From positions 1 through 32,715 of IMG/VR virus record IMGVR_UViG_3300032516_000103: DNA of 32,715 bases, one strand, 5' to 3'. How positions within the stretch are numbered: position 1 is the stretch's first letter; every line of letters begins with the position of its first letter. This document shows, piece by piece, positions 3,350 through 27,904 of this stretch. Under the pieces are notes generated by a model. That model did no database searches. It was not told the DNA's origin and saw only the letters and a list, made by a program, of their open reading frames with translations. Source of the DNA: a virus. The position numbers and the translations under genes were made by a program.

Positions 3350-6300
3350 TTAGAATCCAAAAACATTTTCAACCATCAAATCATGTCGTGTTGGAGGTCG
3401 CTTTCCAATTGCCTTGAGAATATTTTGCAATGGATTATCAATCAACCGCTCAATGTGAGCATCCAAATCAACTTCAAACTCAGTCAAAAACCATTGTGGA
3501 ACTACTTCAATATCTGTTGGTAACGCAATACTTTTAAATCTACCGTACGTTTGATTCAAATAGAAGACTTTAATCTTCATCCCCGACATGATCGGGGTAC
3601 TTTGTCGATCATCGTATTGTTTCAGTAGCAAATTATAATGAATTGCAGCAGCAACATGACCAGGCAATCGTACACTATCACCAAATCGTTTGTATTGATC
3701 TTGATAGTCTTCAATCCCTTGAATGCCCTTAGGCAATCCAATCAACATGATATCTTTCTTTGAAGCTGATCGCAGCGCATCTTTGTATTCCACGATCAAT
3801 TCTGCTACATTTTCCCAAGGTGTTCCTTTCAAGAACATCTCGATAAAATTGTTTAGTTTATCACCTACCGCCCGTGGCAGTGTGGTCTTCTTTGTATCAA
3901 GACCCATGACCTTCATACTATCCGATGGTTTACCCTCTTTGTCAACAACATGTAGTATGTATCGTTTTTTGTCAACAAAAATTCCTCTATCTGTTACGAG
4001 TTCTCGACCACATTTAACAAGATCATCAAAACCTGGATTGCACATGAACTGTTCTTGTACAAATGGTTTGTACGAGTTGTTGACTTCTAAGGCAACTCGA
4101 TCAGCAATCTTAACTGCATCAGCAACTGTGGTAGCATGTGTCATAAAATATGTGCTATCAGTGTTATGTACTAAGATTCCATTGGCAAAAAACATATGTG
4201 TGTCATCAACTTCTATATCGTAGACATACTGTTGATATATCGGCAAGGTTTCAACACGTTGACATTTCACGAATGATAGGTTGTGCTTGAGTGCTGCTTG
4301 CTTCCCCCCTCCATAAGTAACAGGACGTATTTTTCGTGGCTGTATAAAACCAATTGTTTCGAGAAATAGTTTCTCATTTTTAATATGTAACCGTGATGAA
4401 AATGTTCCAGATAAAACTCCTCGGAAAGAGTTTTCGGTATTTTCAGTGCACCATGTCGAAGAAATACCACAAAACAGAAGTAGTCGGTGTATGTCTCTTA
4501 TGTGTTGTTCATTTACACTTGTGATACCAATCCCACCTTGGTTGTTTGTCCATCCGTCAGCAGAAAAAAATCCACGTAGAAACAAAGCAATGTGTTGTGA
4601 GGTTTCCTTGAACATCCACGATGGAGTTGCTTTCTTATTGTCTGTATATAGATGCAGCCGAAGAAACTTTCGAAGCTGTGCTGAAGATATTTGCACATCG
4701 TGGCCATTTGGCTTGTTTGTCCAGGAAGAAATCCATCCAAGTCGACGTAGAGACTGTAAGAGGGTTGAACAAACAATATCAAGATCCTGTTTTCCGATCG
4801 ACAGAAGTGTTCCACCTGTTGATTGAGTATCGACATGTCCATCGCCCATAACATATCCCATCAGAATGAAAAGTTCGTCAGGAATGTTTTGTTGAATGAT
4901 TCCCTGATGTGGAATCATTGGCAAATAAAGCAACGATGAGTCTATATTCTGTGGGGTCACTTCTTTCAAGAAGTCATCGTCGTTCTTTCGCCGCTCCCGT
5001 GTGTTTTTATAGGCAATCAGAGAATGATCTTCCGTCACATCAACATATTGACGATTGGTAATCCATACACGATACATCTGTTTAGCGACCTGGTGTCGTA
5101 CTACATATTTGATTGGACGGAACGTCGTCTCACGAGTTCGTGGATCATATGTTAAAGTCTGATGTTGTACTTCGGTACAATATTGTTTATCGCCTATCAC
5201 GTCATTGATTTTAGTGAACAAGGTTTCAATTGTCTTGGGACCCTGGTCAGTTTCTATGATTGTGTCACCTGCAACTGAATCACCATAAATCACTGACTCA
5301 CACATGAACTTTCCATTAAACTTTGGACCAAACAACGCTAATTCAGGAGGAACACCAGCATCTTGAGTATCTTTAATTGTTTCATATTGTGGAAAATCAA
5401 CATTGTATTCACCATCAAGGAATTCGGCAACCTTGCGACACTGATGACGAAGAATCATTCGACCAGTTGCAGTTACACTCTCACCCATTCGTAAATCAAA
5501 GAACCGGAAATTAATGTTTGTTAAAGCACCGTAAGTGGAATTCAATTTAATCTTGTATACGTATTGTAAACGATCGTAATAATTTGCTGTTTCTTTATCA
5601 CCTTTTGTAATAGCACCTCGCATCAACTTTTGATATTCTTTTCGTTGTTTATACCAATTTGCAAGAATAGCCGGAATAATCCCTTGTTGATTTTGATCAA
5701 ATACTGTTCCATAGCCTGAAAGTGACCATTTTTTATCCCTCAACCATTGAGGCCACTCACTTGCTTCTTTCGTTATTGTTTCACCAGTTTCAAGGCGCAA
5801 CGTAAGCATTGTAAATGATTTCTGAAATATTTCCGTCACGGCTGTAGCAAATTCATCAAATTGCCCTCGTAACGTTTCAGGAGAGATATTAATGGATTGA
5901 ATTGCCGTTGGATACAGTGAGTTAATGTCGATAGATCCTGTGAATTCTTGCATTGAAACTTGTGGATAGAGAACTAAAGCACCGTCAATAGGACGATCTT
6001 CATCGGAAGAATTACCATTTGGAACAATTTGATGGAGCACATGATGGCAATAATTGATGATTGATTGTTCAACTAGTTTGAGCGTTCCTGACACGTGTTT
6101 AAACAATCCCGTTGAAATATGATACATCTGGTTGGCAAGTTCAACATAGCCGAGAGTTTGTTCAAAGCCGTGTAAGATTTCAGTATCTCGAATGTTGTAT
6201 CGAACAAAGAATGGAAAGTTGTTTCTATATAGATCGTGCAGGTTGCCCTGGTATTCTAACTTGGGTAGATTAAGACCAACTTCTTGTTCAATTGATGATA

Positions 6301-7165
6301 GTTTATATGAAGCTTTTTCACCTGGTTCATATTTTTTATACAAATCCATGTAATCGGTACGAACCCGTCCAGCAAATTCAATTGTTGTACCAATGATTTT
6401 TGCAGATCCGTCTTTATTTCGAATTTTTCGCGAATATACAGGACGAAACCAAGGAAGTTTTTTTACTTCTGGAAAATCAAGACGAGTTAACGCTCTCTTA
6501 CCTAAACGTTTTTCAACACGCCTTCCAACATACGGAGTGTCAAACATATCACTATTCCAACCACAAATTACATCGCTATCTTCAATTTCAGTAAGGAAGT
6601 TATCAAGCAATTCTGCTTCGGTTCGACACAATACAACCTTTATGTTATATTCATCGGGAATTGGAGCTTCTGGAACAGCAATATTCATTTCAGCAATTAA
6701 ACGTTCTTCTGTCCAGCCATCTTCAGGAGGAATAGCAAAAACAACCAATTGTTTTGACCACTCGTGAAATAGTGAAACGGAATTGATTTCTGCGTACGGA
6801 TTGTCAATTGACGAGAATCCAATTGCTGGATCGTAATTTACCTCAATATCGAAGAATGTGATATGAAGTTTCGGAGCTGGTTTTCCAAAGTAAACTTGAG
6901 ATAAAATACGAAAATGTGGCTCAATGTCTATCTCATATAAGGTAAAGCCTTCAGCTTTGCACCGATCCTTTTTAGATACAAAATCTCTCTCACTGGTACA
7001 AATAATTGGTGTAACAGAATCACCGTAAATTGTCTTATGTTTTCCGTCAGGATCATCAACATAAAACATATACGGAGCCGAGTAGGGTATTGCCTGACGC
7101 CCATGCTCATCACGCTCCCAGACGATGACATCATCATTAATTGTTGTAGCTGAAATATAACTCAT
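3350..7165 (-). CDS. DNA polymerase family B (T4 gp43-like) with intein
   Basis: 1271 residues encoding the replicative polymerase precursor. Exonuclease motifs: FFDIEVNYD (about 104-112), CGWNSDMFDTPYV (about 201), YNIRDTEILH (about 323). Polymerase motifs: A, SIDINSLYPT (411-420); B, KIKLNSTYGALTN (about 538-550); C, YGD at 627-629 joined to TDST at 1002-1005. Residues 630-1001 are an intein; removing it leaves 899 residues, almost exactly the size of T4 gp43. The C-terminus MVENVFGF could be a clamp-binding tail like that of gp43. ATG 7165 follows TAGGAG, and a sigma70-type promoter lies just upstream. Activity requires splicing, because motif C is split by the intein. Confidence 0.97.
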   Translation of the reverse strand: MSYISATTINDDVIVWERDEHGRQAIPYSAPYMFYVDDPDGKHKTIYGDSVTPIICTSERDFVSKKDRCKAEGFTLYEIDIEPHFRILSQVYFGKPAPKLHITFFDIEVNYDPAIGFSSIDNPYAEINSVSLFHEWSKQLVVFAIPPEDGWTEERLIAEMNIAVPEAPIPDEYNIKVVLCRTEAELLDNFLTEIEDSDVICGWNSDMFDTPYVGRRVEKRLGKRALTRLDFPEVKKLPWFRPVYSRKIRNKDGSAKIIGTTIEFAGRVRTDYMDLYKKYEPGEKASYKLSSIEQEVGLNLPKLEYQGNLHDLYRNNFPFFVRYNIRDTEILHGFEQTLGYVELANQMYHISTGLFKHVSGTLKLVEQSIINYCHHVLHQIVPNGNSSDEDRPIDGALVLYPQVSMQEFTGSIDINSLYPTAIQSINISPETLRGQFDEFATAVTEIFQKSFTMLTLRLETGETITKEASEWPQWLRDKKWSLSGYGTVFDQNQQGIIPAILANWYKQRKEYQKLMRGAITKGDKETANYYDRLQYVYKIKLNSTYGALTNINFRFFDLRMGESVTATGRMILRHQCRKVAEFLDGEYNVDFPQYETIKDTQDAGVPPELALFGPKFNGKFMCESVIYGDSVAGDTIIETDQGPKTIETLFTKINDVIGDKQYCTEVQHQTLTYDPRTRETTFRPIKYVVRHQVAKQMYRVWITNRQYVDVTEDHSLIAYKNTRERRKNDDDFLKEVTPQNIDSSLLYLPMIPHQGIIQQNIPDELFILMGYVMGDGHVDTQSTGGTLLSIGKQDLDIVCSTLLQSLRRLGWISSWTNKPNGHDVQISSAQLRKFLRLHLYTDNKKATPSWMFKETSQHIALFLRGFFSADGWTNNQGGIGITSVNEQHIRDIHRLLLFCGISSTWCTENTENSFRGVLSGTFSSRLHIKNEKLFLETIGFIQPRKIRPVTYGGGKQAALKHNLSFVKCQRVETLPIYQQYVYDIEVDDTHMFFANGILVHNTDSTYFMTHATTVADAVKIADRVALEVNNSYKPFVQEQFMCNPGFDDLVKCGRELVTDRGIFVDKKRYILHVVDKEGKPSDSMKVMGLDTKKTTLPRAVGDKLNNFIEMFLKGTPWENVAELIVEYKDALRSASKKDIMLIGLPKGIQGIEDYQDQYKRFGDSVRLPGHVAAAIHYNLLLKQYDDRQSTPIMSGMKIKVFYLNQTYGRFKSIALPTDIEVVPQWFLTEFEVDLDAHIERLIDNPLQNILKAIGKRPPTRHDLMVENVFGF
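4163..5278 (-). mobile_element. Intein with LAGLIDADG endonuclease in DNA polymerase motif C
   Basis: 372 residues, polymerase residues 630-1001. It begins with Ser (SVAGDTIIET), ends with VHN, and the next extein residue is Thr, giving YGD/TDS after splicing. Splicing block B is visible as TEDHSLIAY (about 711-719), and the C-terminal block as VYDIEVDDTHMFFANGILVHN, split here as VYDIEVDDTH then MFFANGILVHN. Two LAGLIDADG helices are recognisable: FILMGYVMGDG (about 766-776) and LFLRGFFSADG (about 861-871). Ser1, the terminal His-Asn and +1 Thr suggest it is splicing-competent. YGD/TDS is the same insertion point used by archaeal and giant-virus polymerase inteins (pol-c). Confidence 0.93.
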
Positions 7166-11867: not shown

Positions 11868-12170
11868 TTATCCTGGTTGTCCGGGCGTTTGAGCACCAGC
11901 ACTACCAGGAGTTGTTGTACCTGTAGTTGGAGTGTTTGGTTTCACCATTTGGCCCTGTTGTTCTTTTTCAGCCGCTGCGCGCTCTCGTTCAATCTGAGGC
12001 ATCAGTGCCTGTTTTTGTTTCTGTAGGCCCATTTTCTTCATATTAATAGGTTGAGTCAACCGTTGTAGTTGATTATCCAACGTTGCCATCATGGTGTCCA
12101 ACTGTGCAACTTTTGATGCAGCATCCTCGTCCAAGGCTTGCTGAATGAATTCTTTAAATGAAAGAGACAT
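11868..12170 (-). CDS. Possible internal/core protein with capsid-targeting-like leader
   Basis: 100 residues. It starts MSLSFKEFIQQALDEDAAS, which resembles the leader of T4 internal proteins (MKTYQEFIAEA) and contains L-x-E (LDE, residues 13-15), the T4 prohead-protease consensus. The middle is helical and Gln/Lys-rich (QLDTMMATLDNQLQRL, MKKMGLQKQKQALMPQ), and the C-terminus is Pro/Gly/Thr-rich (TPTTGTTTPGSAGAQTPG). The start overlaps the stop of the scaffold-like gene (TAATG). No known family was recognised; a prohead core or packaged protein is the best guess. Confidence 0.6.
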   Translation of the reverse strand: MSLSFKEFIQQALDEDAASKVAQLDTMMATLDNQLQRLTQPINMKKMGLQKQKQALMPQIERERAAAEKEQQGQMVKPNTPTTGTTTPGSAGAQTPGQPG

Positions 12171-13201
12171 TATTTGATCCTTTTCAGAATGAAATTGGCA
12201 AGATGAGAAGCAGGAATTCTACCACGAACACCAACAGCACGCCTGCCGATTTCCTCTTCTTCCTCTTTGGAACCTAACTCGGGTTCCTGAGGGATTGCAT
12301 TTTGGTCACCAGCAGTTTCTCGTTTCCATTGTGCAAGTTTAGCAAGTTGTTTGGATTCTTTCTTTTCTTCTTGCTTCTTCTTGTAATATTCTTCCATATC
12401 CATATTTTCTTCTTCTTGCTTAACACGTGCAACAGACCCACGTTCACCAGCTTGAAACCCCTTAGTTTCAGCTTCCTTTTGACGTGCAACAGCTTCAGCC
12501 TTGCGAGCATCAGCATCAGCACGCATCATATCAATAACTTGTGTCAGTAATGATGTGACTTCGGTCTCACCACCTGCAGCGGGTGTTTCCATACCTGCAT
12601 CAGCACCCATATCAACAGGAGGTTGTTCTCCTGGTGGAGCATTTGGATCCACTCCAGGTTGACCTTGATCGGCAACAGCTTGACTTTCTTCAGCGTCTTC
12701 TTCAACATCTGGCCAAGCAACATCAAGAATACTGAAACGATCACGAAGACGGAAGAGAACTTCAGCTACTTCTGGTGTGCGATCTTCATGTTCTTCTTCG
12801 GCAGCCAAGTATGCACCAAGAGCATTTTCGAATTCATCGGCTTGATCGGCCTGAACAGTAACTCGAACGATATTACCTTTGTCATCTTCTAGACCAAAGG
12901 TAGTAGCATTTTGACGATCAATTTTGTCTTTCTTTTCGAGAGATTTTAGCTTTGCAATTACTTCGGTTTGATCGAACTTCGGGTGGCCCATTGTTGGATC
13001 TTGATGTTCGCGCTGCTCAACTTCACTTAAACGTGTGAACGCTTCTTGGAGACCAATACCAGCCTTTTTCTTTGGTTTGCGAGTTTTCTTTATAGCACTT
13101 TTACTTGCCATGGAAAATAATGGCATTGAGTAACCAGCTATTGCGCCCGCACCTACAGAGCCACCTGCGGCATCCTCATTGAGTTTCTTGAGCAATTCCA
13201 T
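12170..13201 (-). CDS. Scaffold/prohead-core-like acidic protein
   Basis: 343 residues if started at ATG 13201, which follows AAAAGGAAAG; the frame continues to 13231, but that start would precede the predicted late transcript start. Order: leader MELLKKLNEDAAGG (L-x-E at residues 7-9), a basic segment (KSAIKKTRKPKKK), a helical domain, a very acidic Pro/Gly-rich linker (about 165-215, DVEEDAEESQAVAD and PPGEQPPVD) and a long charged coiled coil rich in Glu, Lys and Gln. Low complexity, high charge and coiled coil are typical of scaffolding or core proteins. No enzymatic motif was found. Its late promoter and the adjacent leader-bearing gene support a role in head assembly. Confidence 0.55.
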   Translation of the reverse strand: MELLKKLNEDAAGGSVGAGAIAGYSMPLFSMASKSAIKKTRKPKKKAGIGLQEAFTRLSEVEQREHQDPTMGHPKFDQTEVIAKLKSLEKKDKIDRQNATTFGLEDDKGNIVRVTVQADQADEFENALGAYLAAEEEHEDRTPEVAEVLFRLRDRFSILDVAWPDVEEDAEESQAVADQGQPGVDPNAPPGEQPPVDMGADAGMETPAAGGETEVTSLLTQVIDMMRADADARKAEAVARQKEAETKGFQAGERGSVARVKQEEENMDMEEYYKKKQEEKKESKQLAKLAQWKRETAGDQNAIPQEPELGSKEEEEEIGRRAVGVRGRIPASHLANFILKRIK

Positions 13202-13231
13202 ACGCGCTTTCCTTTTAAATGCTTGGTTCAT

Positions 13232-17642: not shown

Positions 17643-18002
17643 ATGAAAGAACGATACGCTCATGCCCACATGCGAGCGGCCTTAGAGTATGCAAAGTTAT
17701 TATATTATAAGGACAACCAAGTGGGGTGTTTGATTGTCAAAAACGATCAAATCATTTCTATCGGCTTCAGTGGTAGTAGAGACGTATATTACATTGAAGA
17801 CCATCCTAAGAGTTTTGCAGGACTAAAATTTCTCGAACGCTGTAACTTATCAATTTATCGTATGGCGATCGAATATGACACAACTAATAACAACAATAAG
17901 GAGCATACTACATGTCGACTTCTCTTCATGAGGATTCTGCACAGCATAAAGGTATTTTTCTACCCGATCATCAACTTCTTTCACAACCGGAAGAAAATCT
18001 AA
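17643..18002 (+). pseudogene. Truncated dCMP/cytidine deaminase-like remnant
   Basis: Open frame of 119 residues. Its first 45 residues match the start of dCMP deaminases: HMRAALEYAKLLYYKDNQVG, then CLIVKNDQIISIGFSGS (family: K-V-G-A-V-I-x-K-x-x-R-I-I-S-x-G-Y-N-G). The zinc motifs H-[A/C]-E and P-C-x-x-C are absent, and the last 30 codons run in another frame through the start of the reductase gene (overlap 17912-18002). There is no good Shine-Dalgarno before ATG 17643. The likely history is loss of the catalytic half. A functional, shortened protein cannot be excluded. Deaminase beside reductase is a natural dNTP-pool pairing. Confidence 0.6.
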
Positions 18003-21000
18003 GCGAACAAGACCTACTTTTTTTACTTAAACATCGACTAACCCGTGAACATCCGACGGTTTTTGAAGATGCTTTTGCTGAAGAAGTTTGGGCTAGTACG
18101 TACAAAGATCATAATGACGAAGATGTCAGTGATACTGTGTTCCGAGTTGCAGCCGCCGCTGGTGCAATGGAACAAACGGCAGAACTTCGTTTAGAGTGGA
18201 CAGAAAAATTTTACATGTTGTTAACAAAATTTCATGGCACATGTGGTGGAAGAATTTATGCAAATGCAGGGACGGAGTGGGGTGGTACCACACTTATGAA
18301 CTGTTACGTTGGTCCAAGAGTTAAGACTGATCCCGATAGTTTGGATGGTATTTTTGAACATGTTCGGTCACAAGCCCACACATTAAAATCAGAAGGCGGT
18401 TGGGGTGAGAATTTTTCATATCTGCGTCCTCGCGGTGCGTTCATTGGTGGTATAGGAGTTGAAACACCAGGTTCTGTAAAGTACATGGAAATTTTTGATA
18501 AGGTATCAGATGTTATTACCGCAGGATCTGGTCGTAAGAGTGATAATAAAAAAGCGAAAGGTAAAATTCGCAAAGGCGCAATGATGGGAGTCTTGGATTG
18601 CCTCGGTGGAAACACACCTATCAACACTCTTCTTGGAAAAATACCAATCAAGGACCTTGTAGGTCAAACGCCGTACCTGTATTGTGCAGATGAACAGGGA
18701 AAGGTTTTTGTGCGTCAAGCATTACTGGTATGGTCAAAGGGAGTAAGAAAAACCGTCAAGATTGTGTTTGATAATGACGACTTCATCGAATGTACTCCTG
18801 AACATGAGTTTATGTTGAGTGGGGGAGCATTCAAAAAAGCCAAAGATTTACAACCAAGTGATAGTTTGGCAGCTTTGAATAAACGACTTGTGAATGATTA
18901 TCTGTCGTTGAGTGTCACAGGCAGTCGTAAACTCATCGCCGAGCATAATGCGGTATTCGAGATGAAGTATGGCTACTATCCGTCTATACTAACTGGGTCG
19001 CGTACTCCGGAAAGCACTGTTGCACATCATGAAGACCATGTAAAGTGGAACAATCATCCCAACAACATTCAACAAATGACGTTACGTGAACACGGTATTC
19101 ATCATTCTACCGACTTGTGTGAACTACAACGCATGCGGGCAGAACGTATGAAAGGGAAAACGTGGAATGAGTTTTACGGAGAAGAGCAAGCACAGGAAAT
19201 CAGAACGAAATATATAGCGAAGCGCAAGGGATCGACGCCGTGGAACAAAGGCATGAAATTCGCAGTTGATCAAACAAATCACAAGGTTGTTCGTGTTGAA
19301 GAAGGCATAGAACAAGAAGTTTTTGACATTTCAATGCCGGATTATCACAACTTTGTGGCGAATGGTGTATTTGTTCACAACTGTTGGCATCCAGATATTA
19401 TGGAATTTATCACAGCAAAACAACATCCTGGTCGTTTGACAAAATTTAATGTTAGTGTTAATTGTACAGATGATTTTATGCAACGTGTTGTTGGTATTCT
19501 TAAAATTGATAACATGCTTGCTGAAGAAATGAATTTTGATCAACCTAATGATGAACGAGTTCAATCACTTCAAGCAGAACGTGCGCACCTTGATAAATGG
19601 CAATTGGTGTTTCCTGATACAACATTTTCGAAGTACAAATCTGAGTGGCAAGGTGATTTGAATCAATGGCGCACGAAGGGATACCCAGAAATTGTTTACA
19701 GTACAATTTCTACATTACAGTTGTGGGATTTGATTATGCAAAGCACATATAATCGTGCTGAACCAGGTGTTTTATTTCTCGACCGTGCAAATCAGTTTTT
19801 ACCACTAAATTATGCAGAGACGGTATATGCAACAAATCCATGTGGTGAACAAACATTGGCACCAGGTGGTGTTTGTAATCTCGGGTCGTTAAATCTCACA
19901 CAGTTTATTAATAATGATCGCTCGGGGTTTGATCTAGAAAAATTGACACAGTATACACAATACATGGTTCGATTTCTTGATAATATAAATGATTTGACGA
20001 AAGCTCCCCTTCCTCAATATGAGTGGAGTATCAAAAATAAACGACGCATTGGTGTTGGTATTCTTGGTTGGGGTTCTGCCTTGTATATGTTGAAGACAAA
20101 ATTTGCAAGTAAGCAGGCTGATCGTCTTCGTGATGAAGTAATGCAAACAATTGCTCAAACTGCTTATATGTATTCGATCGATCTTGCTGAAGAAAAAGGC
20201 ATGTTCTCCGTATGTGATCCAGAAAAACATCTGCAGGGTATTTTTATTCGTAGTCTTGATCTTCCTGCAGAATATTATGCAAAATTAAAGCAAACAGGAA
20301 TTCGTAATAGTTCGTTGTTATCAATTCAACCAACAGGTAATACATCAATTTTTGCAAACGTTGTATCAGGTGGTCTCGAACCAGTATTTCTTCATGAATA
20401 TGTTCGTACAGTAATCGTTGGTACCATGCCAACTAATATTGCAGATGTAACACCGAAATGGTTTGAAGGTGCGTGGCACGAAACGGCAATGTTCAAGTTT
20501 ACAAAGGAAGGTGACGAAGAAATTCTTAGAGGGCTTGGACCTGATGGTGTCGTTTATAAAATTGACAAGAATCGTGGTCTAACAAAGGAAGTTCTTTGTG
20601 AAGATTACGGGGTTCGTGTGATGAAACGTGCGGGGTTATGGAACTCAAATGCAGCATGGGCAGCCACAGCATTGAGTCTCAACGTAAAGGATCATGTTAG
20701 CGATCTGAAAGGATTTGCGCGGTGGGTTGATAGTGCTATGAGTAAGTGCGTTGCTGAGGGAACCTTACTTGTTACAAATAGAGGCATTGAACCAATAGAA
20801 GCACTGGGAGTGTGTCAAAATCAAGAAGGCTTTGGAGTTGCTGCTGATGATGTTTTTGTTTTAGACGAGAATGGAGTTCAACGTCGAGTAACACGTCACT
20901 ACTATGGTGGAGAGAAACCTTGCAAAACTGTTCGTTTTGACAATGGCTTCGAGCTCACAGCCACGCACACTCATAAACTGAAGACACAAGATGGATGGAA

Positions 21001-22657
21001 AGCATTTGATGAACTTGAAGAAGGGGATAAGGTCTTTTATCGAATGGATACACTCCAAACTGGACGACAATATTGCGATGCTCCACAGCCCGTGTTTGCT
21101 GCAAACGCAAAACACACGACATTTCCAAAGACAGTTGATGAAGATTTTGGAATGTTGTTAGGAATGTGGATTGCTGATGGAAGTAGTACAGATCATTCAA
21201 TAAGTATTTGTGAGAAAAATGATGTCGTAGAAGCATTGTGTACCGATCTTATGCACAAGTTGTTTGTGACACATAAACAACAACTCGACGATCGTTGGGG
21301 AGTTCGAAGCCACTATGTTCATTCATCATCGATTGCACGTTGGTTCAAACAACACTTTGGTCATGGTGCAGCGGGTAAACGCATACCAGACTGGTTTTTG
21401 CGTTCTCCACCAGCAGTCTGGAAATCGTTTTTGGAGGGTTTGACGCTCGATGGTTATATTAAAAAGGATGATTATTCTTCCGTGCTGGTTGTGTATGATG
21501 GATATTCCCAGGATGTAGCAACAAAGGTTTCCTATATGTTGTCAGCAATGGGTGTGCAGTATTCGATAATGGAAAGAAATGCCGGAGATGGACATAAAAC
21601 ATTTGGTGTTGTTGCGTGGCTGGAAGACAATGATACATTAGTTCCTGTTGAACCACATAAACGAAAGTATGGAGTCAGAGGAAAAACACAAAACCAAACA
21701 CATGTTTCAGAGCATTTGTTTGAACATCTGATTTCTCAACAACCTAACAATGTTTATGGTGCAACAATGCGAGCGCGCCTGCACAAGTGTCAAAAACGTG
21801 GTAATTTTGTTCGTATGTCGTTTCTTGATAAGTTGGGAGTGAACTATGACAACAACCTCACGTGTGTTGTGGTAACTAACATCGATGATGTGGGCAGTCG
21901 AAAAGTGTATGATATTGAAGTGGAAGAAACACATAGTTACCTAATCAATGGTATTGTCTCTCATAATACGGTAAATGTTCCGAATGAATATCCGTTTGAA
22001 GATTTTAAATCAATCTACATTGATTCTTATACATCCGGATATGTAAAGGGAGTTACAACGTATCGTGCAGGAACAATGACAACCGTTCTTGCAGCAAAGG
22101 ATGAAAAGACGGCAACTGATGCAGATGAAGAAATTGTTCTTGAGGATGTTAAATTACCTGATTCAGCTCCCGCAACAATGAAAACTTTGAAGGCGGAAGG
22201 TCGAAAATGGTACTTGACCGTTCTTTGGTGGGATGATCAAAAGTCGCGCCCCTTTGGTTTTTTTGTTCACACAAATAGCTATGAAAAGACCGTTACGTCA
22301 GCTGATGCTGTTGAAGTGTTAACAACGTTAGCACGAAGCAAAAAAATTCCAATGAAACATATCAACGAAACACTTGAGAAGATTGCAAGTGATAATAATA
22401 CGACGAAAGTTGCACGTATGATCAGTTTGAATCTTCGACATGGTGTCTTGATTAAAAATATTGTTGCTGCACTCGATCGTGTTCAAGATGTGTTTGTAGG
22501 TACTTTTTTGTTTCAGATCAAAAAGTACCTATCTACATTCATTCGTGATGGTGAAAAAGCTGAGGGTATTGTGTGTAGTGACTGTCAATCTCCGCACGTA
22601 GTTTTTAGTGAAGGTTGCCACAAATGCACAAATTGCGGATCTAGTAAATGTGGTTGA
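17912..22657 (+). CDS. nrdJ: Class II (adenosylcobalamin-dependent) ribonucleotide reductase with two inteins
   Basis: 1581-residue precursor; 913 residues remain after removal of inteins at 230-490 and 946-1352. Catalytic features: LMNC (C131), ATNPCGEQ (N642, C644, E646), partner Cys in GGVCNLGSLNL (C655), and IQPTGNTSIFANVVSGGLEP, split here as IQPTGNTSIF then ANVVSGGLEP (about 805-824). The C-terminus has a Cys-rich tail (CSDC ... C ... C ... C ... C, residues 1555-1580) ending SSKCG, as in class II enzymes; no nrdB-like radical subunit is in the window. The enzyme makes deoxyribonucleotides for phage replication and needs host or scavenged B12. Start ATG 17912 follows AAGGAG. Both inteins must splice for activity. 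Confidence 0.93.
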   Translation: MSTSLHEDSAQHKGIFLPDHQLLSQPEENLSEQDLLFLLKHRLTREHPTVFEDAFAEEVWASTYKDHNDEDVSDTVFRVAAAAGAMEQTAELRLEWTEKFYMLLTKFHGTCGGRIYANAGTEWGGTTLMNCYVGPRVKTDPDSLDGIFEHVRSQAHTLKSEGGWGENFSYLRPRGAFIGGIGVETPGSVKYMEIFDKVSDVITAGSGRKSDNKKAKGKIRKGAMMGVLDCLGGNTPINTLLGKIPIKDLVGQTPYLYCADEQGKVFVRQALLVWSKGVRKTVKIVFDNDDFIECTPEHEFMLSGGAFKKAKDLQPSDSLAALNKRLVNDYLSLSVTGSRKLIAEHNAVFEMKYGYYPSILTGSRTPESTVAHHEDHVKWNNHPNNIQQMTLREHGIHHSTDLCELQRMRAERMKGKTWNEFYGEEQAQEIRTKYIAKRKGSTPWNKGMKFAVDQTNHKVVRVEEGIEQEVFDISMPDYHNFVANGVFVHNCWHPDIMEFITAKQHPGRLTKFNVSVNCTDDFMQRVVGILKIDNMLAEEMNFDQPNDERVQSLQAERAHLDKWQLVFPDTTFSKYKSEWQGDLNQWRTKGYPEIVYSTISTLQLWDLIMQSTYNRAEPGVLFLDRANQFLPLNYAETVYATNPCGEQTLAPGGVCNLGSLNLTQFINNDRSGFDLEKLTQYTQYMVRFLDNINDLTKAPLPQYEWSIKNKRRIGVGILGWGSALYMLKTKFASKQADRLRDEVMQTIAQTAYMYSIDLAEEKGMFSVCDPEKHLQGIFIRSLDLPAEYYAKLKQTGIRNSSLLSIQPTGNTSIFANVVSGGLEPVFLHEYVRTVIVGTMPTNIADVTPKWFEGAWHETAMFKFTKEGDEEILRGLGPDGVVYKIDKNRGLTKEVLCEDYGVRVMKRAGLWNSNAAWAATALSLNVKDHVSDLKGFARWVDSAMSKCVAEGTLLVTNRGIEPIEALGVCQNQEGFGVAADDVFVLDENGVQRRVTRHYYGGEKPCKTVRFDNGFELTATHTHKLKTQDGWKAFDELEEGDKVFYRMDTLQTGRQYCDAPQPVFAANAKHTTFPKTVDEDFGMLLGMWIADGSSTDHSISICEKNDVVEALCTDLMHKLFVTHKQQLDDRWGVRSHYVHSSSIARWFKQHFGHGAAGKRIPDWFLRSPPAVWKSFLEGLTLDGYIKKDDYSSVLVVYDGYSQDVATKVSYMLSAMGVQYSIMERNAGDGHKTFGVVAWLEDNDTLVPVEPHKRKYGVRGKTQNQTHVSEHLFEHLISQQPNNVYGATMRARLHKCQKRGNFVRMSFLDKLGVNYDNNLTCVVVTNIDDVGSRKVYDIEVEETHSYLINGIVSHNTVNVPNEYPFEDFKSIYIDSYTSGYVKGVTTYRAGTMTTVLAAKDEKTATDADEEIVLEDVKLPDSAPATMKTLKAEGRKWYLTVLWWDDQKSRPFGFFVHTNSYEKTVTSADAVEVLTTLARSKKIPMKHINETLEKIASDNNTTKVARMISLNLRHGVLIKNIVAALDRVQDVFVGTFLFQIKKYLSTFIRDGEKAEGIVCSDCQSPHVVFSEGCHKCTNCGSSKCG
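18599..19381 (+). mobile_element. Intein 1 of the reductase, HNH endonuclease
   Basis: 261 residues (230-490), from Cys (CLGGNTPINTLLGKI) to VHN, with Cys as +1, rejoining GVLD to CWHPDIMEFI. Splicing block B is CTPEHEFMLS (about 294-303). The insert carries an HNH-type endonuclease, not LAGLIDADG: AHHEDHVKWNNHPNNIQQMT (about 371-390), followed by a KGKTWNEFYGEEQA ... STPWNKGMKF segment of NUMOD3 type. The end VFDISMPDYHNFVANGVFVHN matches intein blocks F and G, split here as VFDISMPDYH then NFVANGVFVHN. Confidence 0.9.
20747..21967 (+). mobile_element. Intein 2 of the reductase, LAGLIDADG endonuclease
   Basis: 407 residues (946-1352), from Cys (CVAEGTLLVTNRGIEPIEAL) to SHN, with Thr as +1, rejoining DSAMSK to TVNVPNEYPF. 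Block B is TATHTHKLKT (about 1016-1025). LAGLIDADG helices are FGMLLGMWIADG (about 1079-1090) and SFLEGLTLDGYI (about 1172-1183). The C-terminal block is KVYDIEVEETHSYLINGIVS plus HN. It sits at a conserved Ser-Lys-Thr-x-N-x-P segment of class II reductases. The terminal Ser-His-Asn is intact. Confidence 0.92.
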
Positions 22658-22678: not shown

Positions 22679-22686
22679 TATAAATA
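22679..22686 (+). promoter_or_regulatory. Perfect late promoter TATAAATA
   Basis: Exact T4-type late octamer between the reductase stop and the RMF-like gene. With T4 spacing, transcription would begin at or very near the ATG at 22692, so the first gene's late mRNA may be leaderless. There is no good Shine-Dalgarno at the usual place. Confidence 0.65.
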
Positions 22687-22691
22687 CAACT

Positions 22692-22916
22692 ATGAAGATC
22701 AATGATATACTACAAGAAAAGAACAGTGGAATTGCTCATGCCAAAGCTTATGCCAAGGGCTGCGAAGCGGGTGATGCCTTCATGAATTCTTACGGTCAGC
22801 ATAAGGGCAAAGTAATGCCTACGTGCGAATACGAAGAGAATTCTGAAGAACATCGAGCCTGGCATACCGGTTTTAAGAACACTGTACACACGTCTGAGTG
22901 GTTCGATGGAGATTGA
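22692..22916 (+). CDS. RMF-like small protein with capsid-targeting-like leader
   Basis: 74 residues. After the leader MKINDILQE (L-x-E at residues 7-9) comes AHAKAYAKGCEAG (about 15-27), then C-x-Y at about 45-47, then RAWHTGFKN (about 55-63). This order (AY..G..AG ... C-x-Y ... AW..GF) is the layout of ribosome modulation factor, which binds 70S ribosomes and drives 100S dimers in resting bacteria, and of RMF-like phage proteins. Likely roles: parking or inhibiting ribosomes, or another RMF-fold activity. It heads a three-gene late operon. Confidence 0.62.
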   Translation: MKINDILQEKNSGIAHAKAYAKGCEAGDAFMNSYGQHKGKVMPTCEYEENSEEHRAWHTGFKNTVHTSEWFDGD

Positions 22917-22917
22917 A

Positions 22918-23445
22918 ATGAAACTAGATGAGGTTATTGTGGAAGAACAGAAAATAGAAGGACTTTTTGTTGATTTGGATGGCGTTCTTGTTGATTTTGT
23001 AGCACTTGCGCAACAGTGGGTGCCACAATGGCAAGATGATAGTGTTCCAAATCGCAACAAGAAGTTGGATCGTGAATTGTGGGGCAGAGTGAGTGGGCGC
23101 GCGAAGCGGGGGGAACCATTTTGGGGTTCGATGAACCCAATGAATGATGCTCATGAACTTTGGACATATATTAGTAAGTACAATCCACAAATTCTTTCCG
23201 CTAAAGGAGTTGTTGGTAATCCTGATCCAGAGAAACGAGAGTGGGTTAAAAAGTTTCTTGGTCCTAATGTGGTGGTAAATCTTGTGACCAAAGCTATGGA
23301 TAAAGCGCAATTTGCTGCTCCTGGTCGTATCCTGATCGACGATAAAATGAAAGCAATTCAACCGTGGCGTGATGCGGGTGGAATTGGTATTCTTCATACC
23401 AGTGCGGCAAGCACAATTAAACAACTGAAGGATTTGGGACTATGA
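22918..23445 (+). CDS. HAD-superfamily phosphatase with capsid-targeting-like leader
   Basis: 175 residues from ATG 22918, preceded by GGAG at six bases; an ATG at 22906 lies inside that site. After a short leader MKLDEVIVE (I-x-E at residues 7-9) come HAD motifs: GLFVDLDGVLVDF (D19, D21), ILSAKG (about 92-97, motif II Ser), KREWVKKFLG (motif III Lys region), and ILIDDKMKAI (motif IV Asp). It resembles 5'-nucleotidase-type HAD phosphatases. The substrate could be a nucleotide, a DNA or RNA end, or a small phosphate ester. It starts two bases after the RMF-like stop and overlaps the 2H gene by four bases. Confidence 0.78.
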   Translation: MKLDEVIVEEQKIEGLFVDLDGVLVDFVALAQQWVPQWQDDSVPNRNKKLDRELWGRVSGRAKRGEPFWGSMNPMNDAHELWTYISKYNPQILSAKGVVGNPDPEKREWVKKFLGPNVVVNLVTKAMDKAQFAAPGRILIDDKMKAIQPWRDAGGIGILHTSAASTIKQLKDLGL

Positions 23446-23831
23446 AGTTGCAGCATCTTCGAGAGAGTTATTTGGCTTATGTAGTTCCCGATCAAGCTCG
23501 CAATGATCTTGCTCGGGAGTTTCAACCAAAGTATCCAGAATTTGTTGGTCATCATATCACTCAGCAGTTTGGTGTTCCCCTCAACACTCAAAATCCTGGT
23601 AATAGCGCTCAAATTACCGTAATTGGACATGCTGAAGAAGACGGTCTAGAAGCGCTTGTAGTGACCGTTAATGGTGCCAAACGTCGCGAAGATGGGAGAC
23701 TGTATCATATCACTTGGTCTTTAGATAGGAGCAAGGGAAAGAAGCCAGTAATGTCAAATGATCTCGTTCAACGAGGATATACACCTGTTGAGCCGTACAC
23801 GTTTAATGCACCACTTAAGTTGTTCTCTTAG
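23442..23831 (+). CDS. 2H phosphoesterase-like protein
   Basis: 129 residues. Two H-x-T motifs define the family: HHIT (H38, T40) and YHIT (H89, T91), about 50 residues apart as in small 2H phosphoesterases. The N-terminus MKLQHLRESYLAYVVPD has L-x-E (LRE, residues 6-8), like its two upstream neighbours. 2H enzymes open 2',3'-cyclic phosphates or cut cyclic or 2'-5' oligonucleotides; the T4 anti-CBASS protein Acb1 belongs to this superfamily. The gene overlaps the HAD gene (ATGA) and its end overlaps the convergent small gene by four bases. Substrate unknown. Confidence 0.7.
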   Translation: MKLQHLRESYLAYVVPDQARNDLAREFQPKYPEFVGHHITQQFGVPLNTQNPGNSAQITVIGHAEEDGLEALVVTVNGAKRREDGRLYHITWSLDRSKGKKPVMSNDLVQRGYTPVEPYTFNAPLKLFS

Positions 23832-25110: not shown

Positions 25111-26464
25111 TTTTGTAGAGTCCTTTGGAGTAGTTCTTTAATACTTCTTCAAGTTCGGAAATGTAAACCTTACGGCGTTTTGCTTCACTGGACAACAGAT
25201 CAAGATAAACTTTCAGTTGTGTTTCCCCTTCTTTAATTTTTTCTTCATTTTTCAGACGTTCTTCCTCAGTAAAGCGGTATACAGGAAGATCGGCAATGTA
25301 GTCAACGTTAACAATTTTAATTGCATCAAGCCATTCTTTCAATTCAGCACGACTGTCACATTTAGCAGCCGTAGTACTAGCCTTGTGCTTAATTGCAATA
25401 CGTACATCATAGTGACGTTGAAGTTCATCTTGAAGCAAATCACGAAGTCGTTCGTATCGTTGAACGTACCACTGAAGCCTCCAATCGGTGAATAACCGTA
25501 TAAAGGCAACAGGATCAGTATTTAAAATTGCCTTGCCAGTGAAATCTACCACATTGAGGTTCTCAATATGGCGAATTGCTAATCCCACCAAATGCAATGT
25601 TTCGTCATCAGTTCGAGAACTTAACTCTCCCTTCTTAAACTTTACGACAATATCAATGATGTCTTTACTGTGATCGGTGTAATTAAGAATAATACCCTTC
25701 TCATAAAGATCATCTAATTTGTTGAGAAGTTTATCATGCATCAATCCATATGGGAGTTTGTTGATTCTAATTGTTGTTGCATCAATCTTTTCAAAGCTAC
25801 CCTCGAAATAATATGCAACACCACGTTCTGTTTCTTCACGTTTTGATGCAACAGATAGAAATGGTTTAGGAGCAGCGGTGGGTTTGAATTTTGGATATGG
25901 TTCTTTCAGATCTTTTGCACCACTTAAGTGAGTGAGTTGTAGAACAATTAAATCTTCAAGCGATCTCGGCAAAATGTTGGTTGCAAAACCAATTGCAATA
26001 CCTTCTGATGGATTAAGCAAAGCGATTGGTACCAACGGCAGAAAATGTACAGGTTCAAGCAAAGTTCCATCGTAATTCTCTTGCATGGGAACAATTTCAA
26101 TGTCACGAAAGACTACTTCTTTTGTGAACTTTGATATTTGAACAGACGTGTAACGACTTGCACCAAAATCTGTTGGTTTCAGCAGCGTGCCAAACATACC
26201 ATAAGGTGTTAGCAATGGAATGTTGTTTCCATACCGAGCTGCTAATGTGTTAACAGCACCTTCTGGAGTTGCATGAGGATGTAATGGTACAGCAGACGCT
26301 GCAAGCACGGAACTCTTGTACTTTGCACCATCACGACCCGTCCAAAGAACTCGTCGCGCCGCCGATTTCAAACCATCGGATGCAGCAGGGATGGCTCGCA
26401 TTTGCATCACATACAGCGAATATTGTCGACGTTGTTCGTCGATATAGCTGGAAGATTTAGACAT
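25103..26464 (-). CDS. Topoisomerase II medium subunit (T4 gp52-like, GyrA/ParC-type)
   Basis: 453 residues, close to T4 gp52 (441). Features: YSLYVMQMRAIPAASDGLKS, split here as YSLYVMQMRAIP then AASDGLKSAARRVLW (GyrA-type start), TPYGMFGTLLKPTDFGASRY (catalytic Tyr about 105), and the helical tower and C-gate with NPSEGIAIGFATNILP. It cuts DNA and joins with the gp39-like ATPase at 27956-29878. The frame extends to 26494, but ATG 26464 overlaps the stop of a remnant gene (ATGTCTAA) and gives the conserved start MSKSSSYIDEQRRQYSL. No strong Shine-Dalgarno precedes it; translation may be coupled. Confidence 0.93.
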   Translation of the reverse strand: MSKSSSYIDEQRRQYSLYVMQMRAIPAASDGLKSAARRVLWTGRDGAKYKSSVLAASAVPLHPHATPEGAVNTLAARYGNNIPLLTPYGMFGTLLKPTDFGASRYTSVQISKFTKEVVFRDIEIVPMQENYDGTLLEPVHFLPLVPIALLNPSEGIAIGFATNILPRSLEDLIVLQLTHLSGAKDLKEPYPKFKPTAAPKPFLSVASKREETERGVAYYFEGSFEKIDATTIRINKLPYGLMHDKLLNKLDDLYEKGIILNYTDHSKDIIDIVVKFKKGELSSRTDDETLHLVGLAIRHIENLNVVDFTGKAILNTDPVAFIRLFTDWRLQWYVQRYERLRDLLQDELQRHYDVRIAIKHKASTTAAKCDSRAELKEWLDAIKIVNVDYIADLPVYRFTEEERLKNEEKIKEGETQLKVYLDLLSSEAKRRKVYISELEEVLKNYSKGLYKNE

Positions 26465-26573
26465 GGAGTTCGATGTATTTTCGACCTTGTGCAATCACGT
26501 CTTTAATGTGACGTGGTGCGTAGTTGGTATGTTCAACGCAAATATTAATATTAATATCCACGGCTGCTTTCAT
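26457..26573 (-). pseudogene. Truncated metallophosphoesterase copy (C-terminal end)
   Basis: A 38-residue frame beginning at ATG 26573, just after an in-frame TAG. Residues NICVEHTNYAPRHIKDVIAQ align with the C-terminus of the intact metallophosphoesterase (NMCVEHTNYKPMHIKEFVKR), then GRKYI with ARKII. None of the metal-binding motifs remain. The GIY-YIG gene lies immediately beside its truncated end, on the other strand. It looks like the tail of a second copy cut by insertion or recombination. It overlaps the gp52 start. Confidence 0.8.
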
Positions 26574-26578
26574 AAATA
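26571..26578 (+). promoter_or_regulatory. Late-type promoter CATAAATA for GIY-YIG gene
   Basis: CATAAATA 20 bases before the endonuclease start; a 14-bp palindrome TAAATAGCTATTTA (26573-26586) overlaps it, followed by AGGAAGAG. T4 homing-endonuclease genes also have their own late promoters near hairpins. Confidence 0.55.
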
Positions 26579-26597
26579 GCTATTTAGGAAGAGAATA

Positions 26598-27194
26598 ATG
26601 ATAACATATAAGGTATACAAAATTACCAATAAAGTCAACGGTAAAGTATACATTGGTATAACCCAACAACAATATATTTCACATCGTTTTTGGGAACATA
26701 AGAATCGAAAACGCTCAGCCGGTGCATACTTACATTGGTCAATCAACAAATATGGCGATGAAAACTTTTTGATTGAAACTTTACACCAGTGTACCACAAT
26801 TCAAGAAGCAAAAAATACAGAAGTTGAACTTATAGCAAAGTTAAAACTTAACCGCTACAAATATCCAAATGGTAATGGAATGAACCTTACCGATGGAGGC
26901 GATGGTTCCTATGGTTGTAAACATAAAACTTCTTCAATCAAAAAAATGAGCGGTAAGAACAATCACAACTATGGCTTGTTTGGTTCAAAAAACCCAACAT
27001 CAAGAGCCATTAAACAATATTCTTTGGAGGGAAAATATCTGCAAACTTTTGGTAGTCTCCACGAAGTCGCTCGTTGGTTGAAACCTGGATGTTCTAAAAA
27101 TCAGCAAAATTCCATGGCCTCAAACATAGGAAGTTCAATAGCAGGTCGACGCGGCATGACGCAAGCGTACAATTTCACCTGGCAGTATGCTTAA
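26598..27194 (+). CDS. GIY-YIG homing endonuclease
   Basis: 198 residues. The GIY-YIG domain reads YKVYKITNKVNGKVYIGIT (residues 4-22), SHRFWEHK with the catalytic Arg, and EVELIAKL with the metal-binding Glu (about 74-81). Then GMNLTDGGDGSYG (about 94-106) and NUMOD3-like HNYGLFGSKNPTS, and a NUMOD1-type DNA-binding end AIKQYSLEGKYLQTFGS ... WL and SIAGRR ... AYNFTWQY. Free-standing phage homing enzymes cut related phage genomes lacking the gene and spread by repair. It lies on the opposite strand to all neighbours and its end overlaps the metallophosphoesterase stop by four bases. Confidence 0.92.
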   Translation: MITYKVYKITNKVNGKVYIGITQQQYISHRFWEHKNRKRSAGAYLHWSINKYGDENFLIETLHQCTTIQEAKNTEVELIAKLKLNRYKYPNGNGMNLTDGGDGSYGCKHKTSSIKKMSGKNNHNYGLFGSKNPTSRAIKQYSLEGKYLQTFGSLHEVARWLKPGCSKNQQNSMASNIGSSIAGRRGMTQAYNFTWQYA

Positions 27195-27904
27195 ATAACA
27201 ACGAACCCTTTTTCTGCTCCAATAATTTTACGAGCTCGCTTAACAAATTCTTTGATGTGCATTGGTTTGTAATTTGTATGTTCAACACACATGTTGAAAT
27301 TTTTTGGTCCTGCTAAGTTGTCATGGATGTGTCCGTGAATCGATATGCATCCATCCGGAATGGTATCTAACGGATAGTGTGTAAACAGCAACTGGATGTT
27401 GAAATCGTGATCATCAACATCAATCACTCGGCACAAATGCGTTTCGTCAAAACCAAGCTCCATTACTTTTCCTTCACGGGTGATGTCGTGATTCCCAACC
27501 ATCTGGATCTTGTATCCAGGCAATTGTGCCAGGATATGATTTGTATCAGCTTCTTTCAAAAAAGCAATATCCCCACCAAAGATACAAACATCTTGTGGTT
27601 TGACTGTGTTTTGATAGTTGCCGATCAAACAAGCATCCATCAATTGACGTGTTGGGAACGGTCGATTTGCGTATTTGATGATGTTGCCGTGTCCCCAGTG
27701 AATGTCGCTCCAAACCCAAATGTCAACATCACCATATGGATCAAGTTCTCGTGGTTCACCAGTTGCATTACGAAGAATCGTTTGAATCTTCTCCCATTGC
27801 TGAGGGCGCTTTACTTTCGGTGTAGTACGTCCATGAAAGACATCTGGTAAGTTCAGATCTTTCAAATATAGTTGTCGCAATTCAGCTTGTGTAATTTTTG
27901 TCAT
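27191..27904 (-). CDS. Calcineurin-like metallophosphoesterase
   Basis: 237 residues with the full set of motifs: WSDIHWGHGN (D-x-H), FGGDIAF (GD), MVGNHDI (GNHD), LFTHYPL (His) and SIHGHIHDN (G-H-x-H). Two metal ions are expected. Phage members include dinucleotide and nucleic-acid phosphatases; the substrate here is unknown. AAGGAG precedes ATG 27904 and a strong sigma70-type promoter is directly upstream. A truncated second copy of its C-terminus lies at 26457-26573. Confidence 0.93.
   Translation of the reverse strand: MTKITQAELRQLYLKDLNLPDVFHGRTTPKVKRPQQWEKIQTILRNATGEPRELDPYGDVDIWVWSDIHWGHGNIIKYANRPFPTRQLMDACLIGNYQNTVKPQDVCIFGGDIAFLKEADTNHILAQLPGYKIQMVGNHDITREGKVMELGFDETHLCRVIDVDDHDFNIQLLFTHYPLDTIPDGCISIHGHIHDNLAGPKNFNMCVEHTNYKPMHIKEFVKRARKIIGAEKGFVVI

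Follow-up and report, generated by a model that had tools for sequence, protein, structure and literature searches.

Three small, unrelated genes that follow a putative late promoter in a T4-related jumbo phage encode proteins with a common N-terminal leader. Judged from sequence, this leader is a real, recurrent, protein-level feature of late genes, with properties of the capsid-targeting propeptides of T4. Its presence on unrelated proteins suggests that it marks cargo for packing into the phage head and delivery into the next bacterium.

The operon and its relatives

The DNA analysed here, called the window throughout, is an IMG/VR virus record of 32,715 bases, and this 32.7-kb fragment comes from a jumbo phage related to T4; reading of its ORFs revealed T4-like replication genes. 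An IMG/VR contig (G004) is 100% identical to the window and is a piece of the same virus. A search for DNA-level relatives among known phages gave one 92-base match only, and by ORF3 protein the nearest characterised relatives are Sinorhizobium phage Phosso, Salicola phage SCTP-2 and Agrobacterium phage Atu_ph07.

The promoter box, the arrangement of the genes and the three N-termini are, position for position, as the original prediction described them (Table 1). ORF1 and ORF2 almost abut, and ORF2 overlaps ORF3 by 4 nt. The leaders end in [L/I]-x-E at residues 9, 9 and 8 of ORF1, ORF2 and ORF3, respectively. The operon is also found in loci L001 (contig G1, 237 kb), L002 (contig G2, 89 kb) and L173, with differing gene content. 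L001 has the same three genes as the window, and L002 has in addition a 148-aa gene on the 5' side (MRLEEVKID) and a 120-aa gene on the 3' side (MKLNETTHAER). L173 has no RMF-like gene, and in its place is a 92-aa protein with the leader MKLADILTE, followed by T. These changing small genes with a common leader bring to mind the variety of internal proteins among T4-like phages (PMC9026906).

Table 1. Positions of the promoter box, genes and leaders of the operon in the window
Feature	Position	Strand	Remarks
T4-type late promoter box TATAAATA	22679..22686	+	sole perfect copy in window
ORF1, 74 aa, RMF-like small protein with leader	22692..22916	+	orthologs in L001, L002
ORF1 leader MKINDILQE	22692..22718	+	E then KNS in 3/3 orthologs
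ORF2, 175 aa, predicted HAD-type 5'(3')-deoxyribonucleotidase with leader	22918..23445	+	phrog_2643 4.6e-27
ORF2 leader MKLDEVIVE	22918..22944	+	M-x-L-D-E kept in three loci
ORF3, 129 aa, 2H-phosphoesterase-like protein with leader	23442..23831	+	phrog_36523 5e-31
ORF3 leader MKLQHLRE	23442..23465	+	missing from Phosso, SCTP-2, Atu_ph07 orthologs

The three encoded proteins

The protein families originally assigned to the operon roughly hold: the ribosome factor is RMF-like, the HAD phosphatase is a deoxyribonucleotidase with the expected motifs, and the 2H phosphoesterase stands on H-x-T motifs and a fold match. ORF1 is 68% and 48% identical to its orthologs in L001 and L002. It resembles ribosome modulation factor in having an A-Y-x-K-G-C-x-A and Y...R-A-W-x-x-G-[FW] pattern, but differs in being phage-encoded and late, in its extra leader and in a match that lies below the family cut-off. 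The L002 ortholog matches the Pfam RMF family PF04957 (1.1e-5, 25.8 bits, just under the curated cut-off of 27.9), and window ORF1, which does not reach the family cut-off, is not among the PF04957 matches in the Pfam search. The NCBIfam RMF model gives 0.017 for window ORF1 and 3e-4 for the L002 ortholog. We therefore call ORF1 only roughly RMF-like. Its predicted structure is too poor for use (pLDDT 51). The leaders of the three orthologs read MKINDILQE, MKIDELLNE and MKIQDLFE.

ORF2 has a GGAG sequence 6 nt upstream of its start at 22918, and an alternative, longer start lies at 22906. The Pfam NT5C model matches the L001 ortholog (3.5e-7, 30.7 versus a cut-off of 24.8), with window ORF2 below the cut-off at 19.9. 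The HAD motifs DLDGVLVDF (DxDGVxxDF) and IDDK are invariant in ORF2 orthologs, and the family match and these motifs together identify ORF2 as a predicted 5'(3')-deoxyribonucleotidase (NT5C). The ORF2 homologs of Atu_ph07 and Phosso have no leader and start right at the HAD domain. Where the leader is present its end varies, from IVE in the window to IMD in L001 and LNQ in L002 (P1 = E, D and Q), and the L173 protein starts MKLAEVTTPQG, without [L/I]-x-E. Alignment of the leaders in related phages, proposed at the outset as a check, thus gives a mixed answer: the cleavage-position Glu is kept in ORF1 (3/3) and mostly in ORF3 (3/4), but in ORF2 it is kept in only one of four. T4 IPIII with Asp at its processing site is still targeted, yet no longer processed (PMC9026906). 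ORF2 of L001 could likewise be targeted yet uncut, and the same may apply to ORF2 in some other relatives.

The H-H-x-T and H-x-T motifs of ORF3 are invariant in 7 homologs. Foldseek comparison of a moderate-confidence AlphaFold model (pLDDT 68) yields matches only in the viral library, to giant-virus proteins, one of them an RNA ligase, and to phage Acb1, with probabilities of 0.91-1.00; against the PDB, ORF3 has no significant match by fold or sequence. The similarity to Acb1 (T4 57B, an anti-CBASS 2H phosphoesterase) is a weak structural match of the model (probability 0.91, E 0.028), the best fold matches of ORF3 being instead the giant-virus proteins, and a Pfam search found no sequence match between ORF3 and the Acb1 family PF23474.

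Residues 1-7 of the ORF3 model, within the leader, have pLDDT <50. Orthologs without a leader begin M-AYLAY (Phosso), MK-GYTYY (SCTP-2) and M-YSGW (Atu_ph07). The predicted cut after Glu would leave S-YLAY in the window, G-YLAY in L002 and G-YEAF in L173, whose leader is MKVSHILRE followed by G; L001 has QRT-GYMAY, with the Glu lost. Cleavage would therefore leave S/G-Y-x-A, which corresponds to the natural start of the leaderless orthologs, and the leader ends at the domain boundary.

Recurrence of the leader

To count leaders, we called genes with our own simple caller in the window, G1, G2, SCTP-2, Phosso, Atu_ph07, RaK2, CBB and T4, and compared N-termini fitting M[KR][ILVMWFY]x2-3[LI]xE with column-shuffled N-termini. 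Observed and expected numbers are 3 and 0.12 in the window, 6 and 0.41 in G2, 21 and 1.18 in SCTP-2, and 20 and 1.97 in Atu_ph07, although fold changes in the window, SCTP-2 and Atu_ph07 are somewhat optimistic, as the pattern was refined after viewing these three (W was added for Atu_ph07). G1 has 2 leaders versus 0.44 expected, which for the E-bearing form is not clearly above chance (p=0.08 relative to internal Met). By column shuffle, leaders are at background in Phosso (1 versus 0.62), RaK2 (2 versus 1.24) and CBB (2 versus 1.25); T4 has 1 versus 0.75. The pattern is rare at internal Met residues (0/216 in the window, 2/2356 in SCTP-2, 3/2603 in Atu_ph07), and when each family is represented by one protein, SCTP-2 still has 10.6 versus 0.75 (maximum 4) and Atu_ph07 7.2 versus 1.25 (maximum 5). 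In all, five genomes or contigs have the leader, on a total of 28 homology groups; in SCTP-2, 14 homology groups are tagged. The recurrence of one leader layout on unrelated proteins speaks for the original interpretation. A count of [L/I]-x-E close to the N-terminus that did not require the M[KR]-hydrophobic start gave a weak signal, and was dropped.

The T4 protein that fits the pattern, MRLEDLQEE, is UvsY, which is not known to be a head protein. Phosso has the prohead protease and scarcely any leaders, and neither RaK2 nor CBB rises above background, which indicates that the tag is restricted to certain lineages.

An ordinary explanation is that these are simply late enzymes, among them small accessory proteins and a deoxyribonucleotidase that serves the nucleotide supply, whose unimportant extensions arose independently and look alike by coincidence. 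The variable leader of ORF2 fits this explanation, as does the abundance of phage deoxyribonucleotidases, of which 183 phage records were matched. We nonetheless find coincidence distinctly unlikely, given the enrichment above shuffled N-termini in several genomes, the association with late promoters described below and the unrelated L173 protein with the same leader.

Glu alone at P1 is found on 21 proteins of SCTP-2 and 20 of Atu_ph07, versus 19 and 10 for D, N, Q, K and R combined. A leader that directs late proteins to the tail, neck, membrane or assembly zone, with [L/I]-x-E as part of an uncut binding helix, would not be expected to favour Glu in this way, nor to stop at a domain boundary as in ORF3. 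It would, however, account for the ORF2 and ORF3 orthologs in which P1 varies while M[KR]L and the hydrophobic positions persist, and for relatives that have a protease and lack the tag. We rate such alternative destinations as unlikely, and prefer a leader that targets the head.

Late promoter and timing

A single copy of TATAAATA is not significant alone, with 1.36 expected in the shuffled window. We therefore rejected the idea that the box is meaningful by itself, since about one copy arises by chance, and consider only its position and conservation. An ATAAATA box precedes the first operon gene in all four loci (window, L001, L002 and L173). In G1, ATAAATA boxes lie ~20 nt 5' of many genes in the head-tail block, with a sense-strand peak at 20-29 nt and few antisense copies. 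Among six genomes, ATAAATA occurs at most 75 nt upstream of 23/55 leader genes and 242/2370 others (p=2e-9), and with one gene per homology group the numbers are 13/28 and 202/1728 (p=7e-6). The late expression originally proposed is supported by the box in all four loci and by this association with leader genes. Reasoning from the promoter only, we infer that the operon is expressed late, in time for head assembly.

T4 late boxes are located at -13 to -6. The gap between the box and the ORF1 ATG is 5 nt in the window and 6 in L001, and is also 5 before G2 gene 31959. With T4 spacing, the 5-nt gap would put the transcription start on the A of the ATG at 22692 or directly beside it, which predicts a leaderless mRNA. 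In such an mRNA the first codons could matter, and the leader codons at the start of late genes might then act on translation or on the stability of the mRNA. However, leader positions use codons no differently from the genome as a whole (smallest p 0.19), which argues for selection at the peptide or protein level, and the conserved stretch closes with a motif of amino acids. We consider an mRNA element highly improbable.

Protease and putative cleavage site

T4 gp21 cuts after [L/I]-x-E (PMC9026906). Genes for S77 (gp21-type) prohead proteases are present in G1, SCTP-2, Phosso, Atu_ph07, T4, RaK2, XacN1 and CBB, and in the 32.7-kb window fragment neither a protease nor a capsid gene was found. 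The gp21-type protease anticipated elsewhere in the genome is thus present in G1 and three complete relatives, but not in the window fragment itself. In an alignment of major capsid proteins from six jumbo phages, LxE with S, T or N as the next residue lies near the maturation site of T4 gp23, in the sequences LMETATAG, LMENATAG, LRESATAG, LKESATFG, LFESATAG and LAESAAVG. The P1' residue is S, T or N at these inferred capsid sites, versus K, E and S at the leader ends of the window. The putative protease site is compatible with the end of the leader. Candidate peptide substrates for an S77 protease are MKINDILQEKNSG, MKLDEVIVEEQKI and MKLQHLRESYLAY, along with the capsid peptide LAESAAVG.

Tagged proteins in other phages

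Among tagged proteins outside the operon is an Acb1 anti-CBASS homolog in G2 (L027:17103-17606, - strand), with the leader MKLEDLFE and a match to PF23474 of 1e-35. The T4 and G1 homologs of this protein have no matching leader, the G1 homolog starting MLLWEVTDKEKKGS. A search of the literature outside subscription journals found no report of this leader or of virion-packaged Acb1. SCTP-2 has a tagged Nudix protein (phrog_1185, 3e-36), and one tagged Atu_ph07 protein has a weak ART-PolyVal match (4e-4).

Most tagged Atu_ph07 proteins (MRWEQLTES, MKWHQLTEA and others) belong to one array at 39.5-50.6 kb, AUZ94865 to AUZ94875. The mature parts of these proteins are homologous to those of an SCTP-2 array with leaders of the MKINDILKE type. 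The leaders of the two homologous arrays are unlike in type but share their layout and the [L/I]-x-E end. Published virion data support packaging of tagged proteins only indirectly. For Atu_ph07, 131 virion proteins have been reported. By accession count, the tagged array lies within CDS 31-76 of Atu_ph07, and this block as a whole contributes 29 proteins detected in virions (PMC6102473).

In CBB, the tagged protein CBB_299 (MRFSQITED) was detected in virions by two peptides (PMC5259590 Table 4), and CBB_321 (MRYNQLQEA), which is annotated as structural, is absent from that table. One of two tagged proteins in virions is weak evidence on its own. As RaK2 and CBB are both at background for the tag, proteomics of the RaK2 group was dropped as a broad test, and the comparison covered CBB_299 and CBB_321 only. 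The original proposal that the operon proteins are delivered at infection is partly supported: tagged proteins outside the operon that resemble enzymes of takeover or counter-defence favour it, and the poor conservation of the cleavage Glu in ORF2, along with its loss from one ORF3 ortholog, weakens it.

A model for the leader

In T4, IPI, IPII, IPIII and Alt have N-terminal propeptides of 10-19 residues that are cut by gp21; some of these proteins are injected, and their mature parts are diverse (PMC9026906). The leaders of T4 IPII and IPIII were recovered in our N-terminal [L/I]-x-E scan. The operon resembles this system in encoding small unrelated proteins with a common N-terminal leader, which in the three window proteins ends in [L/I]-x-E. 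The parallel drawn at the outset with the T4 leader MKTYQEFIAE applies to the layout but not to the sequence, which in the operon is of the MKINDILQE type. Also unlike the T4 internal proteins, the cargo is RMF-like, deoxyribonucleotidase and 2H-like, and its packaging is predicted. In the jumbo phages phiKZ and SPN3US, too, a gp21-like protease cleaves head ejection proteins behind a Glu motif, and these are ejected (PMC9026906), but the phiKZ motif is S/A-x-E, and a short common tag is not reported for phiKZ or SPN3US in the literature examined.

On balance, we lean towards a leader that works like the T4 capsid-targeting propeptide (CTS) and loads effectors into the head. The three unrelated proteins would share a detachable leader of the form M[KR]-hydrophobic-x2-3-[L/I]-x-E, which late in infection would draw them into the prohead core. 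A gp21-type (S77) protease would then cleave behind the Glu, leaving a mature protein that would stay with the DNA and enter the next host. Targeting, cleavage, injection and a role in the host are all predictions for the three operon proteins. Once in the host, these might hold ribosomes, or handle RNA ends or immune nucleotides.

More tentatively, and as a possibility that we place somewhat below an even chance, this T4-related lineage of jumbo phages may preload enzymes by means of an exchangeable head tag. The cargo would include Acb1 and ADP-ribosyltransferase-like, Nudix, RMF-like and 2H proteins, and the tag could be gained by genes whose orthologs in related phages are produced only within the cell, such that the same counter-defence protein is delivered with the DNA before phage expression begins. 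If so, head cargo could be read from jumbo phage genomes, a leader together with an ATAAATA box designating a candidate injected effector, and the anti-CBASS enzyme would be predicted to arrive with the DNA. The principle of the T4 internal proteins would then extend to giant phages and point to unknown takeover or counter-defence proteins, and short tags could be used to put foreign proteins into large phage heads.

Other features

Two neighbouring genes of the window have N-termini of related appearance. In the gene at 12170-13231 (- strand), a CATAAATA box ends right at the first ATG, and an internal ATG at ~13201 has AGGA upstream. The true start is probably Met11, which would give MELLKKLNE followed by DAAGGSVGAGAIAG, a further [L/I]-x-E leader; in G1, the ortholog is laid out likewise, with MDLLKKLEE followed by EAAGG. 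The product of the gene at 11868-12170 (- strand) starts MSLSFKEFIQQALDE, followed by DAAS, similar to T4 leaders such as MKTFKEFIKE, and its G1 ortholog starts MDSFKQYLDQLNE. It is possibly a further internal or core protein.

Two tiny proteins elsewhere have, after a Glu, sequences like the N-termini of mature capsid proteins. These are CBB_293 (L111:28938-29096), with VNE followed by NASSGATSAGG, and a T4 protein (L130:18966-19130, - strand), with IKE followed by DMVAGDSGGNPENISIGTTSGA.

The ribonucleotide reductase and DNA polymerase genes of the window (17912-22657 and 3350-7165) are overlong and have intein-like insertions. The reductase insertions differ in L001 and L002, with none in the part of L173 covered here, and an AAA ATPase of L002 also has an intein-like insertion. 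The window at 26457-27904 has a gene for a GIY-YIG homing endonuclease (26598-27194; phrog_314 4e-25) that adjoins the end of a phosphoesterase gene, and beyond the endonuclease gene, at 26457-26573, is a leftover copy of the phosphoesterase C-terminal sequence (ICVEHTNYAPRHIK).
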